The translations under genes were made by a program, and so were the position numbers. This document shows positions 1,859-15,458 of a stretch of DNA of 64,000 nucleotides, piece after piece (position 1 is the first letter of the stretch; each line of letters begins with the position of its first letter). Below the pieces are notes generated by a model. It had not been told where the DNA came from. It saw only the letters and a list, made by a program, of their open reading frames with translations, and did no database searches. This stretch comes from Acidobacteriota bacterium (GTDB lineage: Bacteria; Acidobacteriota; Thermoanaerobaculia; Gp7-AA8). The DNA lies in contig QHVT01000011.1 of assembly GCA_003223645.1 (NCBI GenBank), forward strand, positions 1 through 64,000, read 5' to 3'.

Positions 1859-2081
1859 CGTTGACTGGCCGCCCAACTCCTTATGCCTGTCACCTCGAGC
1901 CGGAGCACTGCGCCGTGCGCAGACGCTGATCGAAATGACAAGCCGCTCAACCGGCCTTTGGCCGGATGAGGGGCTGTCACTGGAAGCAGCCGGCTCAGGA
2001 TGGCGGGGGAAGGATGTGTGATCGGATCAGCGAATGGAGTACTGAGTCCCGCGCGTGTGTTATCGTGAATGATGAGGTGAC

Positions 2082-2219
2082 ATGATGTCCAAGGTTAACG
2101 GCGAAAAGGCACGTGCGGCCATTGCAAAGCGTCGCCGCACGGCTCAAAGAGCGAAGACACGTGCTGCACGCGCTGCAGCGGTTGCTGCCAGTCCTGCGAA
2201 AGTTGCGAAAAGCAGTTAA
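2082..2219 (+). CDS. Small, very basic alanine-rich protein
   Basis: A 45-codon frame with two adjacent ATG codons (2082, 2085) just after a GAGGTGA Shine-Dalgarno-like stretch at 2074-2080. The spacing favours the second ATG. The product is almost entirely Ala, Lys and Arg (for example KARAAIAKRRRTAQRAKTRA). This composition is seen in small nucleic-acid-binding or histone H1-like bacterial proteins and in ribosome-associated peptides. No family can be assigned. The good ribosome binding site and clear stop make translation plausible. It is transcribed away from the large minus-strand genes. Confidence 0.45.
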   Translation: MMSKVNGEKARAAIAKRRRTAQRAKTRAARAAAVAASPAKVAKSS

Positions 2220-2546
2220 TTGACGTTGCCCGTGTGTTCAGTTCGGCTGCCGGCTATCAGAACAGTGACGGGTCGTTGATCGCCGTCGCTGTCGATGCCC
2301 TCGAGCAGCCATACTCCGACAACTTCAACTTCAGCACGTCCGCGGCGGCGGTCACACTCGATCTCCCGTGCGCCCTCGCGACGCCATCGGTCTGTTTGAC
2401 TAAGTACTTCATTCGCTAAATTCGCGCACACGTCATCCCGAGCGGCAGCGAAGGAGCGCAAGTTACGCATTTTGAGATGCTTCGCCGTCTCCGCGGCTCG
2501 GCATGACGGTGCTGAAGTCCCGTGACCGAATTTAGCGAATGAAGGA
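2220..2546. other. Intergenic region ending in a palindromic repeat
   Basis: No gene recognised. The right half (2407-2544) is a palindromic repeat described separately, ending 2 bases after the stop codon of the 1374-residue minus-strand gene. Confidence 0.5.
2407..2544. repeat. Palindromic repeat (GTCATCC family) with 18-bp perfect outer arms
   Basis: Perfect 18-bp inverted arms at 2407-2424 and 2527-2544 (CTTCATTCGCTAAATTCG and its complement) flank a GTCATCCCGAG ... CGGCATGAC inner palindrome. The inner core is shared with repeats at 11172, 19844, 21133, 23741 and 59578. It sits immediately after the stop of the leftward gene and could fold into a strong transcript-end hairpin. Confidence 0.75.
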
Positions 2547-5500
2547 CTACGGTACCTCCAACGTGTCCGCAAACGTAATGCGGTAGCCGATGCCGAGCGC
2601 GGTTGAGCCTTCGCCGAACGACTCGGGGAGATCATCGAGCAGCTGCAGCGCGTCGACGATTTGCGCGCGGTCGGTGTCGCGGCCGTAAACCTCGACCTCC
2701 AGCACGACGATGCGCAGCGGATTGGGGCGCGGTGGCGCGGTGCGCACTTGTCCCTGCCAGACGGTGTTCTCGGGCTTGAGAGTCGTAGGCGTCATGATCG
2801 CTGACGCGACGCGCTCCCATCCGATCTCGTCGGTGCTGCCGTCGCCCGTCCGTTGTTCGAGGCGGAGGATCATTAACGAAGTACTGAACTGTCCACGCTG
2901 CGAGAATTCGTACGCGGGGCCGTTCACTTTCACTGCCACGATGCCGGTGGTGTCGAGGTTCGTCGTGTCGTAGGTGACGTCGCGATGGGGAACGAGTTGG
3001 ATGAAGTCGGCGGGGACGGTCGTCGAGATGTGCGCGGGCGCGACCGACTTCGGCTGGAAGCGCGCGAATACGAGGTGGACCATCGGAAAGTATGCGGTAC
3101 CGGGATCGAGGAGGATGTCGCAGTACCAGAGGTTCCGGTCCGCGTCGAATTGCGGCGCGTAGCCGACGATGTCGACGTCCCTGCCGTTTTCGGCGAGCTT
3201 CACCGTCATCGGCGGGACGGCGGGCGCGAGGAAGTTCGGCGTCATGAGCGGGAACGTGGCGTCGGCCGGCCAGAGGGGGTCCATGCCCCACTCGCTCGTG
3301 AACTTCTTCAGCAATTCCGCGGCGTCGGAGCCGAACGGAACGAACGCGGGCTTCAGCGTGACGCCCAACAGCTCGCCGGCTCCCGACGAGAACCACGGCC
3401 GCTCCATGTAGACGCGCAAGCCGCCGCAGCGGCGTGAGGACTTCGCGTTCGGCAGCGCGCCGCTTCGCATCCACTGGAACAGCGGCACCATGTACAGCGG
3501 CTTCGGCTTGTCCGGACGCGCCGAGTTGAGGATGTCCGCCGGAGTGGGGATCCCGGCTTCCGCGCCGGTGGGCCGAACGAGGTTTTTCGGATCGGCAGTC
3601 ACGCTCTCCGGGAAGTACTCGCGGAACCTCGTCGACGCGGCCGGCGTGTACGTGACGGCGTGATACTTCGTGTCGCCGACCGGATGGCTGAGCGTGAATT
3701 CGGGGAGATCGTCTGCCGGATCGAGCAGGCGGACTTCGGCGAGCTGCATCTTCTGCGCGACGAAATCCGTTGCTTCGATGAACGCCGGCTTCGTGACGTC
3801 GTCGAACGGATCCTTCCACGTTGCCTGCACGTCGACTTTGCCCGTGCTCTTCGCGTCGACGAGGAACTTGCCGTCCAGCGTGGCGAGGGTCTCGCCGAAT
3901 TTTTTCTGCGGCGTCACGGAGTCGATCTTCGGAATCTTCAGCGGCTGCTGCACCGCGTGAACGAGCACCAGCGTGCGGAAGGGGAGGTGCAGCCAGTTGC
4001 GGCCCTCGATCGCACTGGTGCGCAGATCGTTGAGGTTCGGCACCGGCTTCTCGGCCGTCCACGCCCACACCGCCATGTTCTCGAGATCGGTCGGATGGAA
4101 GTAGGAGCTGATGCGCACTTCGTACGTTTCGCCCTGCGGGATTTGCACGTCGAGCACGTGGTTGATGCCGTCCCACACCGGCGTCGTCTTCGGCGCATTC
4201 GCGGCGATGCCGGTCATGCGCAGGCGGAACGGTTTCGGGTCGGGCCAGGGCTCGAACGGTATCTTGTTCACGATCGGAGGTCCCGGCGGCTCGATGATCT
4301 CGTCGGGCGTGGTCATGCCCGGCAAGCCGAGGAGGAGGACGCCGCGCGCGTAGGGATCGGGAAGGTAAGAGACGATGAAGGAGTCGTTGGCCTGAATCCA
4401 ATACGAATGTCCCGGCTCGACGATTTCGGACGCGCCGGGAATCGGCTCGCGGCTGCCGTCGGGCTTCACGCGTTCGGTGAGCGATCCTGCTTCACGCTCG
4501 GCGAGTGGATAGTCCGGCACGTTCATCGCCGGCGATCCGTCGAACTTGCGATGATGCTCGGCCATCAGCTGCGACGTCTTCGGCGGCACGATGTGCCGCG
4601 CCGTTTGCTGCGCCGCGAGCACCGCGTCCGAGTCGTTGAATTTGCTGCGCACCACCAGTCGCTCGAGCGATTCCCCTTCGACCGGCTTCGCCTGCAGCAT
4701 CACCATCGGAGGACTGATCGGCTCGAAGCGGCGGTACTTCACCTTGTCCGTGACTTCGGTCTGCATGACGCCGAACGCCGCGTCGTCGGGCGAGAAGACG
4801 CTGTTGCCCGCGAGGTCGGTCGCGCGCACGCGCAACTGATAGCTGTAGCCGAAGCGCAGACGCGGCAGCGATTTCGGTTTCGGAGTGAACGCCGCCGTCA
4901 TCTTGAACTGCGTGTCCGGAGCATTCGACGGCGCACCGACTTGCGTCGGATCGTCGGGATCGTGCGAGTCGCTCTTCAGAATCGTGTTGCCGTATCGCGG
5001 TGCGCCGAGGCTCCAGCCGTTCCAGGTGAAGAGCGAGTCGTGCGCGCGCAGCACGCGCGGACCCGCGCCCGGCACCGGCTCCGTCACGCTCATCTGCACG
5101 AATCCTTCGTCTTCTTCGGGCGGAAGCGTAAGCGGGCCGCCGGCCGCCTCGGAAAACGTGTACGTGCCGACGCGGCGGCAGAGCGAATGCCATGTTGCCG
5201 ACTTGTCGTCCCACACGTCGACGCGATACCCGCGCACGAGATCCTCGGCGAAGAGGTCCTGCTTCTCCGCAGGCGCATCGGCTTCCACCGGCGACGACGC
5301 GTCGATCTTGCGCAACGCGACGTCGAGCGCCCACGAGGCCTGGAAGCGATCTTTCAAATGGTCCGCCGCATCTGTGCGGGCGATCGAAATGCCGGCGGTC
5401 TGCAGCGACGGCAGCCCCTGTTCTTTCGCGTCGGTGCCGGACCATCGATTGTGTTTGTGATGGTGGACGATGGTCGTGGCGGTGTTCTGCAATTTGAGGC

Positions 5501-13140: not shown

Positions 13141-14202
13141 TCATACGGCCGCTGCCTCCAAGGGTTGCGCGCCGATGTAGACCGACTGCGGACGGATGAT
13201 CCGTCCGGTGCGGCGCTGCTCGGCGCAGTGCGCGATCCAGCCGACGACGCGGCTGATGGCGAACGTCGGAGTGAACAGCGGCACCTCGAGGCCGAGGCCG
13301 TGGAGGAGGAGGGCGGTGTAGAACTCGACGTTCGTCTGCAGCTTGCGGCCGGGCTTGTACTCCTCGAGCAGGCGCAGCGCGGTTTGCTCGACGGAGCGCG
13401 CGAGATCGTAGAGACGCATGTCGCCGGCGCGCGTGAACATTCGCTCTGCGGCCGCAGCGAGAACGTCGGCGCGCGGATCGCGCACTTTGTAGACGCGATG
13501 GCCGAAGCCCATCAAGCGCTCGCCCGACTCGATCTTGCGGCGCAGCACTTCTTCGGCGCGCGACGCGTCGCCGATCTCGAAGACCATGTCGAGCGCGGGC
13601 CCGGGCGCGCCGCCGTGCAGCGGACCTTTGAGCGCGCCGATTGCGCCGGTGATCGCGGAGACGAGATCGGAGCCGGTCGACGCGATCACGCGCGCCGTGA
13701 ACGTCGACGCGTTGAGACCGTGATCGACGACGGTATTGAGATACGTCTCCAGTCCGCGCACGAGCTCCGCGTGAGGCTCGATGCCGGTGAGCATGTAGAG
13801 ATAGTTCGCGGCGTATCCGAGGTCGGCGCGTGGCGCGAGCGGCTCCTGGCCGTGGAGAAGGCGCCAGTAGGTTGCGACGATCGTGGGAAAGGCGCCGGGG
13901 AGGTCGTCCTCGTTGAGTGTGCCGGCGGCCATGCGCAACGCGTCCATCGGTTCTTTGGACTGTTGTGTTGCTGCTTTCAGGAGCGACAGCGTCGCTTCAC
14001 TCAGAAAGCGGCAGCGCAGCTGCCGCAGTCCAAAGCCTGCGGCTTCGAAGAGCAGCGCTGCCCTTTCTTCGAATGTAGCCGAAGGCGCCAGCTCCTCCAC
14101 GCGATGTCCGGCGATGACGAGCTCCCCGCGCTCGCCGTCGACCATGCTCAGCCGCGTCTCCGCGGCCACGATTCCTTCGAGTCCGTTGTGCACGTTCGTC
14201 AT
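13141..14202 (-). CDS. Citrate synthase / 2-methylcitrate synthase family protein
   Basis: A 353-residue citrate-synthase-fold enzyme that condenses acetyl-CoA (or propionyl-CoA) with oxaloacetate. I chose the ATG at 14202 (MTNVHNGLEGIVAAET) because this is how family members begin, and the promoter hexamers lie just upstream; the open frame extends 24 codons further. Active-site histidines are in LHGGAPG and GFGHRVYK. The position of the catalytic aspartate reads NVEFYTALLLHG, with Glu instead of the usual Asp. I recall Glu here in some relatives, but it may alter substrate use. It is divergent from a second, DNA-binding citrate-synthase homologue 59 bases away. Confidence 0.88.
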   Translation of the reverse strand: MTNVHNGLEGIVAAETRLSMVDGERGELVIAGHRVEELAPSATFEERAALLFEAAGFGLRQLRCRFLSEATLSLLKAATQQSKEPMDALRMAAGTLNEDDLPGAFPTIVATYWRLLHGQEPLAPRADLGYAANYLYMLTGIEPHAELVRGLETYLNTVVDHGLNASTFTARVIASTGSDLVSAITGAIGALKGPLHGGAPGPALDMVFEIGDASRAEEVLRRKIESGERLMGFGHRVYKVRDPRADVLAAAAERMFTRAGDMRLYDLARSVEQTALRLLEEYKPGRKLQTNVEFYTALLLHGLGLEVPLFTPTFAISRVVGWIAHCAEQRRTGRIIRPQSVYIGAQPLEAAAV

Positions 14203-14261
14203 ACGCGGCACAACGTAGGTTCGGTTGACATTTATGTCAATGTTGATTGTATAATCAACCA
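14203..14261. promoter_or_regulatory. Divergent promoter with two palindromic operators
   Basis: Two palindromes fill the spacer: TTGACATTTATGTCAA (14225-14240) and GTTGATTGTATAATCAAC (14242-14259). On the plus strand TTGACA (14225-14230) and TATAAT (14250-14255) are perfect hexamers 19 bases apart, ending 6 bases before the ATG at 14262, so the transcript is probably leaderless. On the minus strand TTGACA (14240-14235) and TACGTT (14217-14212) are 17 apart, ending 9 bases before the ATG at 14202. The palindromes overlap both promoters. Confidence 0.75.
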
Positions 14262-15458
14262 ATGGCTGCCGCATGGATCGATGCCGCCGAGGCGGTGAGA
14301 CTGCTGGGAGTGAACCGGGCGACGCTGTACGCGTACGTCAGCCGCGGCTTCATCCGCTCCGAGCCGGTGGCCGGCAAGCCGCGGCAGAAGCGCTACGCGC
14401 GCGAGGACGTCGAGCGGCTGCGCCTGCGCGCCGAGGAGCGGCGCAATCCCGAGAAAGCGGCAGCGAACGCGCTGCGCTGGGGCGTGCCGATCCTCGAGTC
14501 GTCGATCACGCTGATCACGGACGGCAAGCTGTATTACCGCGGCCATGACGTCGCGGCGCTCGCGCGCGACCACTCGATCGAAGACGTTGTGTCGCTGATC
14601 TGGACGGGTGCCTTCGACGGCGATCTCTTCGACACGCCGCTGCACGTGATCGCCGGCGGCGCGGCGACCGGCGACCTGCCCTTCATCAATCGCGCGCAGT
14701 CGATCCTGCCGCTCGTCGCCTCGCGCGACCCGCTTGCGTTCGACTTCCGCCCGCGCGCCGTCGCGCAGACCGGCTGGCGCATTCTCAACCTGCTGACGAG
14801 CGTCGCCGCGGCGACGCGCGAGCTCGCGCCGACGATCGACGAGACGCTCGCGATCGCGTGGGCGCCGAAGGTGAAAGGCGCAGCCGATCTCATTCGCGCG
14901 GCGCTGATCCTCTGCGCCGATCACGAGCTGAACGTCTCCGCCTTCACCGCGCGCTGCATTGCCTCCGCCGCCTCGAATCCGTACGCCGCCGTCCTCGGCG
15001 GCCTCGCCGCGCTCGAAGGCGCGAAGCATGGCGGCGCCACCGCGCGCGTCGAAGCGATGTTCGACGACCTGCGCCGCTCGCGCGATCTCGAGAAAGCGCT
15101 CGCCGAGCGGCTGCGCCGCGGCGAGCGCATCGACGGCTTCGGCCATCCGCTCTATCGCGCCGGCGATCCGCGCGCGAAAGTGATGTTCTCGCTCCTCGAC
15201 GCGCGCTTCCCGAGATCGAAGGAGCTCGCCTTCGCGCACGCCCTCTCCGCCGCCGCCCAACGCGCCCTCGGAGAAAAGCCGAACAGCGACTTCGCGCTCG
15301 TCGCCGTCTCCCGCACGCTCGCGCTCCCCCCCGGCAGCCCCCTCGCGATCTTCGCGATCGGCCGCACCATCGGCTGGATCGCGCACGCGATCGAGCAGTA
15401 CGCGCAGGACGCGATGATTCGTCCGCGGGCGCGGTATGTGGGCGAGAAGCCGGCTTAG
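14262..15458 (+). CDS. Helix-turn-helix / citrate synthase fusion protein
   Basis: A 398-residue fusion from the ATG at 14262. Residues 1-55 form a MerR-like helix-turn-helix (AWIDAAEAVRLLGVNRATLY ... SRGFIRSE ... RYAREDVERL), and residues 70-395 a citrate synthase domain. The active-site residues look intact: His in KHGGAT, His in GFGHPLY and Asp in NSDFALV. Such fusions are known as citrate-synthase family proteins with an excisionase-type DNA-binding domain. The likely role is either a DNA-binding, acyl-CoA- or citrate-responsive regulator of the divergent citrate synthase gene, or a bifunctional enzyme. The palindromes in the shared promoter are obvious candidate sites. Codon use is strongly GC-biased like its neighbours. 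Confidence 0.88.
   Translation: MAAAWIDAAEAVRLLGVNRATLYAYVSRGFIRSEPVAGKPRQKRYAREDVERLRLRAEERRNPEKAAANALRWGVPILESSITLITDGKLYYRGHDVAALARDHSIEDVVSLIWTGAFDGDLFDTPLHVIAGGAATGDLPFINRAQSILPLVASRDPLAFDFRPRAVAQTGWRILNLLTSVAAATRELAPTIDETLAIAWAPKVKGAADLIRAALILCADHELNVSAFTARCIASAASNPYAAVLGGLAALEGAKHGGATARVEAMFDDLRRSRDLEKALAERLRRGERIDGFGHPLYRAGDPRAKVMFSLLDARFPRSKELAFAHALSAAAQRALGEKPNSDFALVAVSRTLALPPGSPLAIFAIGRTIGWIAHAIEQYAQDAMIRPRARYVGEKPA

Follow-up and report, generated by a model that had tools for sequence, protein, structure and literature searches.

Two citrate synthase genes lie back to back in the window, that is, the whole 64-kb stretch of DNA analysed here. The minus-strand gene starts with the ATG at 14202-14200 and the plus-strand gene with the ATG at 14262-14264, so that the two starts flank the 59-base divergent spacer (14203-14261) described in the original prediction. 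A third citrate synthase with the usual catalytic residues is encoded elsewhere in the genome.

The plus-strand gene (14262..15458) encodes P0001, a fusion protein of 398 aa composed of a MerR-like/HTH_17 head (residues about 5-55), a linker and a citrate synthase domain, in agreement with the DNA-binding domain and citrate synthase proposed from the sequence. In profile searches the head scored 30.7 bits for HTH_17 (cut-off 27) and 23.0 bits for MerR_1 (cut-off 21.6), both above the Pfam cut-offs, the PF00376 MerR model stayed below its cut-off, and the protein matched PF00285 with 222.5 bits (cut-off 27). The AlphaFold model of P0001 had a pLDDT of 91, and its best PDB matches were citrate synthases at a TM of about 0.7, headed by CitA of M. 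tuberculosis, whose structure has been solved with bound pyruvate. Alignment showed that the catalytic His/His/Asp residues are all kept in P0001 and that the active site is well preserved among 87 fusion relatives, with the Asp in 85/87, the His residues in 80-85/87 and the substrate arginines in most. The sequence TLYAYVSRG in the region of the recognition helix is near-invariant among the relatives, as is the operator described below.

The minus-strand gene (13141..14202) encodes P0002, a citrate synthase of the CitA/PRK12350 type of 353 aa, which scored 342.7 against the NF009005/PRK12350 model (cut-off 332). Its best solved relative is 2C6X, the CitA of B. subtilis ('citrate synthase 1'), and the two proteins have the motif NVEFY in common. 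In this motif Glu takes the place of the catalytic Asp, in P0002 as in 2C6X, and the same replacement was found in all 59 of the 59 partner synthases that were aligned.

The spacer contains the two exact palindromes that had been predicted. The left one, TTGACATTTATGTCAA (14225..14240, plus strand), has the arms TTGACAT and ATGTCAA around TT, and the right one has the arms GTTGATT and AATCAAC around GTAT (14242-14259), with the 16-bp element TTGATTGTATAATCAA at 14243..14258 (plus strand). Both have the 16-bp geometry TTGA-N8-TCAA, are spaced 18 bp from centre to centre and are the sole matches to this geometry in the 64-kb window, where 0.46 were expected. The opposed minus-strand promoter is also present, with TTGACA at 14240-14235, a spacer of 17 nt, TACGTT at 14217-14212 and 9 nt to the ATG. 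On the plus strand the predicted perfect hexamers were found at 14225-14230 (TTGACA) and 14250-14255 (TATAAT), the latter 6 nt before the ATG, and they are separated by 19 nt, a spacing that the prediction had left unstated. This zero-mismatch TTGACA-19-TATAAT arrangement (14225..14255) was the sole hit at up to 2 mismatches, with 0.37 expected, and the promoter scan at spacers of 16-18 nt gave no match.

A conserved composite operator

For comparison, 80 loci with genes for fusion relatives were retrieved, and most of these have a partner-type citrate synthase divergently upstream. The core TCAAYNTTGAT-N6-ATCAA, located at 14237-14258 on the plus strand of the window, was found upstream of the fusion gene or its operon at 75 loci at up to 2 mismatches, nearly all of them with 0. 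A near-identical operator is present at 78 non-redundant loci in Acidobacteriota, Chloroflexota, Rubrobacter, Gemmatimonadota and others, and the logo of these sites delimits a footprint of 33 bp (offsets -6 to +26; 14231..14263, plus strand in the window). The 78 sites were collected with a TCAA/TTGA/TCAA core pattern and those twelve letters are therefore fixed by the search, whereas the locus count, the flanking letters, the TANNNT element and the genome controls described below are not. Within the footprint the right palindrome provides half-sites B and C, and half-site A (14235..14240) reads TTGACA on the minus strand.

Outside the 33-bp footprint one further feature is conserved, namely A, T and A at -25, -21 and -20, which on the minus strand reads TANNNT exactly 17 nt from TTGACA. 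TANNNT is found at precisely this place, the -10 position of the partner, at 43/78 loci, and the half-site TGTCAA thus doubles as the -35 box of the gene for the second citrate synthase, with TACGTT (14212..14217, minus strand) as the -10 box in the window. At loci with long fusion leaders, the TTGATT of the site is followed by TANNNT 17 nt on in 15/40, which places two -35 boxes back to back, 2 bp apart, within the operator. Because of these -35 boxes inside the site, promoter constraint could account for part of its conservation.

The original prediction of two palindromic operators is borne out in part. Both palindromes are exact, and the right palindrome and the TGTCAA arm are conserved beside the fusion genes; but the left TTGACAT arm is peculiar to this genome, being found at the same spacing at 1/78 loci, and what is conserved is a single composite element rather than two independent operators. 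On this count the left palindrome was rejected as a conserved second dimer site. TTGA occurs at -13/-14 at 16 loci, many of which belong to related Anaerolineae. Additional operator-like copies in both orientations were observed upstream of the fusion gene at L015:1510-1590.

No constant third gene was found at the fusion loci, where genes for threonine dehydratase-like, methyltransferase, MutS-domain and other proteins vary. At L032, L035, L038 and L054 (about 1940-3000; some Anaerolineae) the operator is separated from the fusion gene by a threonine/serine dehydratase-like gene, which apparently shares an operon with the fusion.

Proposed leaderless and near-leaderless starts

Transcription starting at or next to the start codon had been proposed for both genes. 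For the second citrate synthase the comparison favours this proposal. The distance from the -10 box to its ATG is 9 nt in the window (14203..14211, minus strand) and 5-7 nt from the -10 position in 14 Acidobacteriota-type relatives, as against at least 30 nt in most Chloroflexota-type loci, which supports a leaderless or nearly leaderless start; in some of the 14 the hexamer at the -10 position is a poor match. For the fusion gene the proposal fares less well. In the same-genus relative L001, TTCCGT and TACAAT stand in place of TTGACA and TATAAT, and the 6-nt distance to the ATG is common to both. As the -35 box is not shared, the plus-strand hexamers are no more than a candidate promoter for the fusion gene itself in this genome. 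A conserved plus-strand -10 box at TATAAT was rejected, as the 14 loci with TA...T are close to the expectation from column composition; moreover, half of TATAAT is the AAT of the operator. Some relatives have a TATGAT immediately upstream of the site that is an equally good promoter candidate for the fusion gene.

Co-occurrence of the operator and the fusion gene

The comparison extended to 61 related genomes, and the exact site was found in 13/16 that bear the fusion and in 0/45 that lack it (Fisher p about 9e-11, a value that overstates independence because the genomes are related). Of the three fusion genomes without the exact site, L110 and L116 still have a version of it with a single or symmetric change, which in L116 is a symmetric change of the right palindrome to TTGAC...GTCAA, and L118 has a degenerate trace only. 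In G008 the second synthase is present and both fusion and site are missing, and in L002/L107 the site is kept before the fusion with no partner beside it, a genome search having revealed no second synthase at E below 1e-70. At the tandem locus L072 the exact site precedes the second synthase, in the same orientation to that gene as elsewhere. These distributions lend sequence-based support to the earlier idea of an autoregulatory enzyme-sensor.

Chance matches to the exact pattern numbered about 25 in about 290 Acidobacteriota genomes when known fusion sites were left out, or ~0.08 per genome, and a single hit elsewhere consequently means little. The 6.4-Mb genome studied here holds one exact copy, in the 14203-14261 spacer, and the inspected matches with 1-2 mismatches are mostly inside open reading frames; a global regulon was rejected on these grounds. 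Overlapping, opposed copies with 1 or 2 mismatches were observed inside open reading frames at G000:C43:77803-77836 and C20:68146-68179.

Other phyla and other divergent genes

The TCAAYNTTGAT core, with N6 or N7, is also found between the fusion gene and a divergent neighbour on plasmids of Deinococcus and Alphaproteobacteria. The neighbour facing the site encodes a citrate synthase in Agrobacterium fabrum C58 and Chelatococcus, a pyruvate carboxyltransferase in Deinococcus sp. QL22, a CoA transferase in Azospirillum thermophilum and a DUF2332 protein in Roseomonas mucosa. At L022, L023 and L056 the divergent gene encodes an HMGL-type synthase and has the site's TTGAC(A/T) upstream. These proteins belong to the homocitrate/isopropylmalate synthase superfamily, with matches to PF00682 in L022 and L056 and matches below the cut-offs to TIGR02660 and related models in all three, and the three genomes encode ordinary citrate synthases as well. 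Known Re-citrate synthases have homocitrate synthase as a relative and are often misannotated as such (PMC12016533). The HMGL-type synthases opposite the site are possibly Re-citrate synthases.

An identical operator region was observed in MAGs labelled Gemmatimonadetes and Latescibacterota (L048, about 2380-2430, and L057, 2955-3000), in the latter adjoining an IS1595-type transposase; recent transfer or a binning error may explain the identity.

Discussion

The genes lie back to back, the operator between them occurs together with the fusion and overlaps the partner's -35 box, and the catalytic residues are retained. From these observations we infer that P0001 is likely to be a one-component regulator that uses a citrate synthase fold as its sensor and acts locally, through one composite operator, to repress both the partner and itself. 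The fusion would bind, as a dimer or higher oligomer, the operator between its own gene and that of the CitA-type synthase. Once bound it would cover the -35 box of the partner and repress it, and would also repress its own gene, whose transcription and translation start the operator overlaps or abuts; given this placement, repression of both genes would be the simplest outcome of binding. A citrate synthase ligand, be it oxaloacetate, an acyl-CoA or the product citrate or methylcitrate, would occupy the intact active site and change the affinity for DNA, thereby setting the amount of the second synthase. A metabolic enzyme has probably been turned into a gene switch in this way. Some considerations weigh on the other side: MerR-type HTH proteins are often activators, and the fusion, keeping all catalytic residues, may be mainly an enzyme.

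The retained active site also allows for a trigger enzyme, in which a working citrate or methylcitrate synthase doubles as the repressor and catalysis or substrate load controls DNA binding, possibly within a hetero-oligomer that includes the second synthase. Such an enzyme would be a special case of the regulator proposed above and not its opposite. The preservation of His/His/Asp and the substrate arginines in most fusions and the consistent Asp-to-Glu change in the partners are in its favour, but the conserved residues may serve ligand binding alone, and we regard a trigger enzyme as possible but somewhat doubtful.

MerR promoters are marked by spacers of 19-20 bp with a palindrome inside (PMC11049809 and PMC1526738, as far as the accessible parts of these sources go). 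The exact TTGACA-19-TATAAT on the plus strand and an HTH above the MerR_1 cut-off would accordingly suit an activator of the MerR kind, by which the fusion untwists the 19-nt promoter and so switches on its own gene, perhaps while repressing the partner. We consider this unlikely, as the 19-nt arrangement is lost even within the genus and the conserved promoters of which the site forms a part have spacers of 17 nt, for which no untwisting is needed.

Two independent operators combined with conserved leaderless plus-strand transcription, as originally envisaged, would fit the shared geometry of the two palindromes, 18 bp from centre to centre, but they are hardly probable in the face of a left arm found at one locus and a plus-strand TTGACA lost in the same genus. 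The ownership of the site by a global regulator such as MtrA, with the HTH incidental, is very improbable, since the exact site is missing from the 45 relatives without the fusion and is about single-copy in the bearers, and to our knowledge MtrA is not expected in Acidobacteriota, Chloroflexota or Deinococcus. It draws on gel shifts with MtrA at TTGACTTAACTGTCCA, a site of TTGA-N8-TCCA shape in the sco5831/sco5832 intergenic region of S. coelicolor, reported in the accessible part of PMC12323332. Any other, unfused regulator reading the site is unlikely, given the spread of the site across phyla.

The local repressor with a citrate synthase sensor thus remains our preferred explanation, and it would offer, in one 33-bp stretch of DNA and one protein, a candidate operator and a candidate sensor for the supply of citrate synthase. 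More tentatively, a widespread family of such regulators may respond to the substrates of citrate synthase, or to its product, through a domain that is still catalytic, use the near-universal operator TCAAYNTTGAT-N6/7-ATCAA and control the enzyme opposite, whether a Si-type synthase, an HMGL-type (possibly Re-) synthase or a CoA-transferase. Genes for relatives of the fusion, for instance that of Agrobacterium fabrum C58, carry the plain annotation of citrate synthase. If the proposal is true, many 'citrate synthase' annotations denote transcription factors, and models of central carbon metabolism in which they are counted as enzymes will have to be corrected.

Several known systems share parts of this arrangement. 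The sco5831/sco5832 pair of S. coelicolor (citA3/citA4) likewise consists of two putative citrate synthases with a common intergenic region and a TTGA-N8-TCCA site, similar in shape to the present operator, and the accessible part of its description treats the pair as an MtrA target only, with no report there of an HTH head or self-regulation (PMC12323332). CitA of Caulobacter is likewise a citrate synthase, and its regulatory role does not depend on catalysis; according to the accessible part of the source that role is cell-cycle control, whereas a local operator and an HTH head characterize the present system (PMC7083601). Our search of the open-access literature, with subscription papers outside its range, found no description of an HTH-citrate synthase fusion regulator.

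With the MerR family the fusion has the HTH_17/MerR_1 head and the 19-nt plus-strand spacer in common, but its effector domain is a citrate synthase, and a palindrome within a 19-20 bp promoter spacer is confined to the non-conserved 19-nt case. Regulators of the MocR/GabR type join a GntR-type HTH to an aminotransferase fold and are commonly encoded beside or divergent from the gene of an enzyme of the same fold. P0001 resembles them in uniting an enzyme fold with an HTH; it lacks their GntR-type HTH and aminotransferase fold, however, and couples HTH_17/MerR_1 to citrate synthase without PLP chemistry. In B. subtilis, citA is reportedly controlled by the divergent local repressor CitR of the LysR family, which Jin and Sonenshein are said to have described in 1994. 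There the synthase is of the same type and the regulator is likewise divergent and local, but CitR is LysR-type, while the regulator proposed here is a citrate synthase in its own right that carries a MerR-like head. By analogy, the fusion would fill the role that CitR has for citA and work in the manner of MocR/GabR, as a member of neither family.
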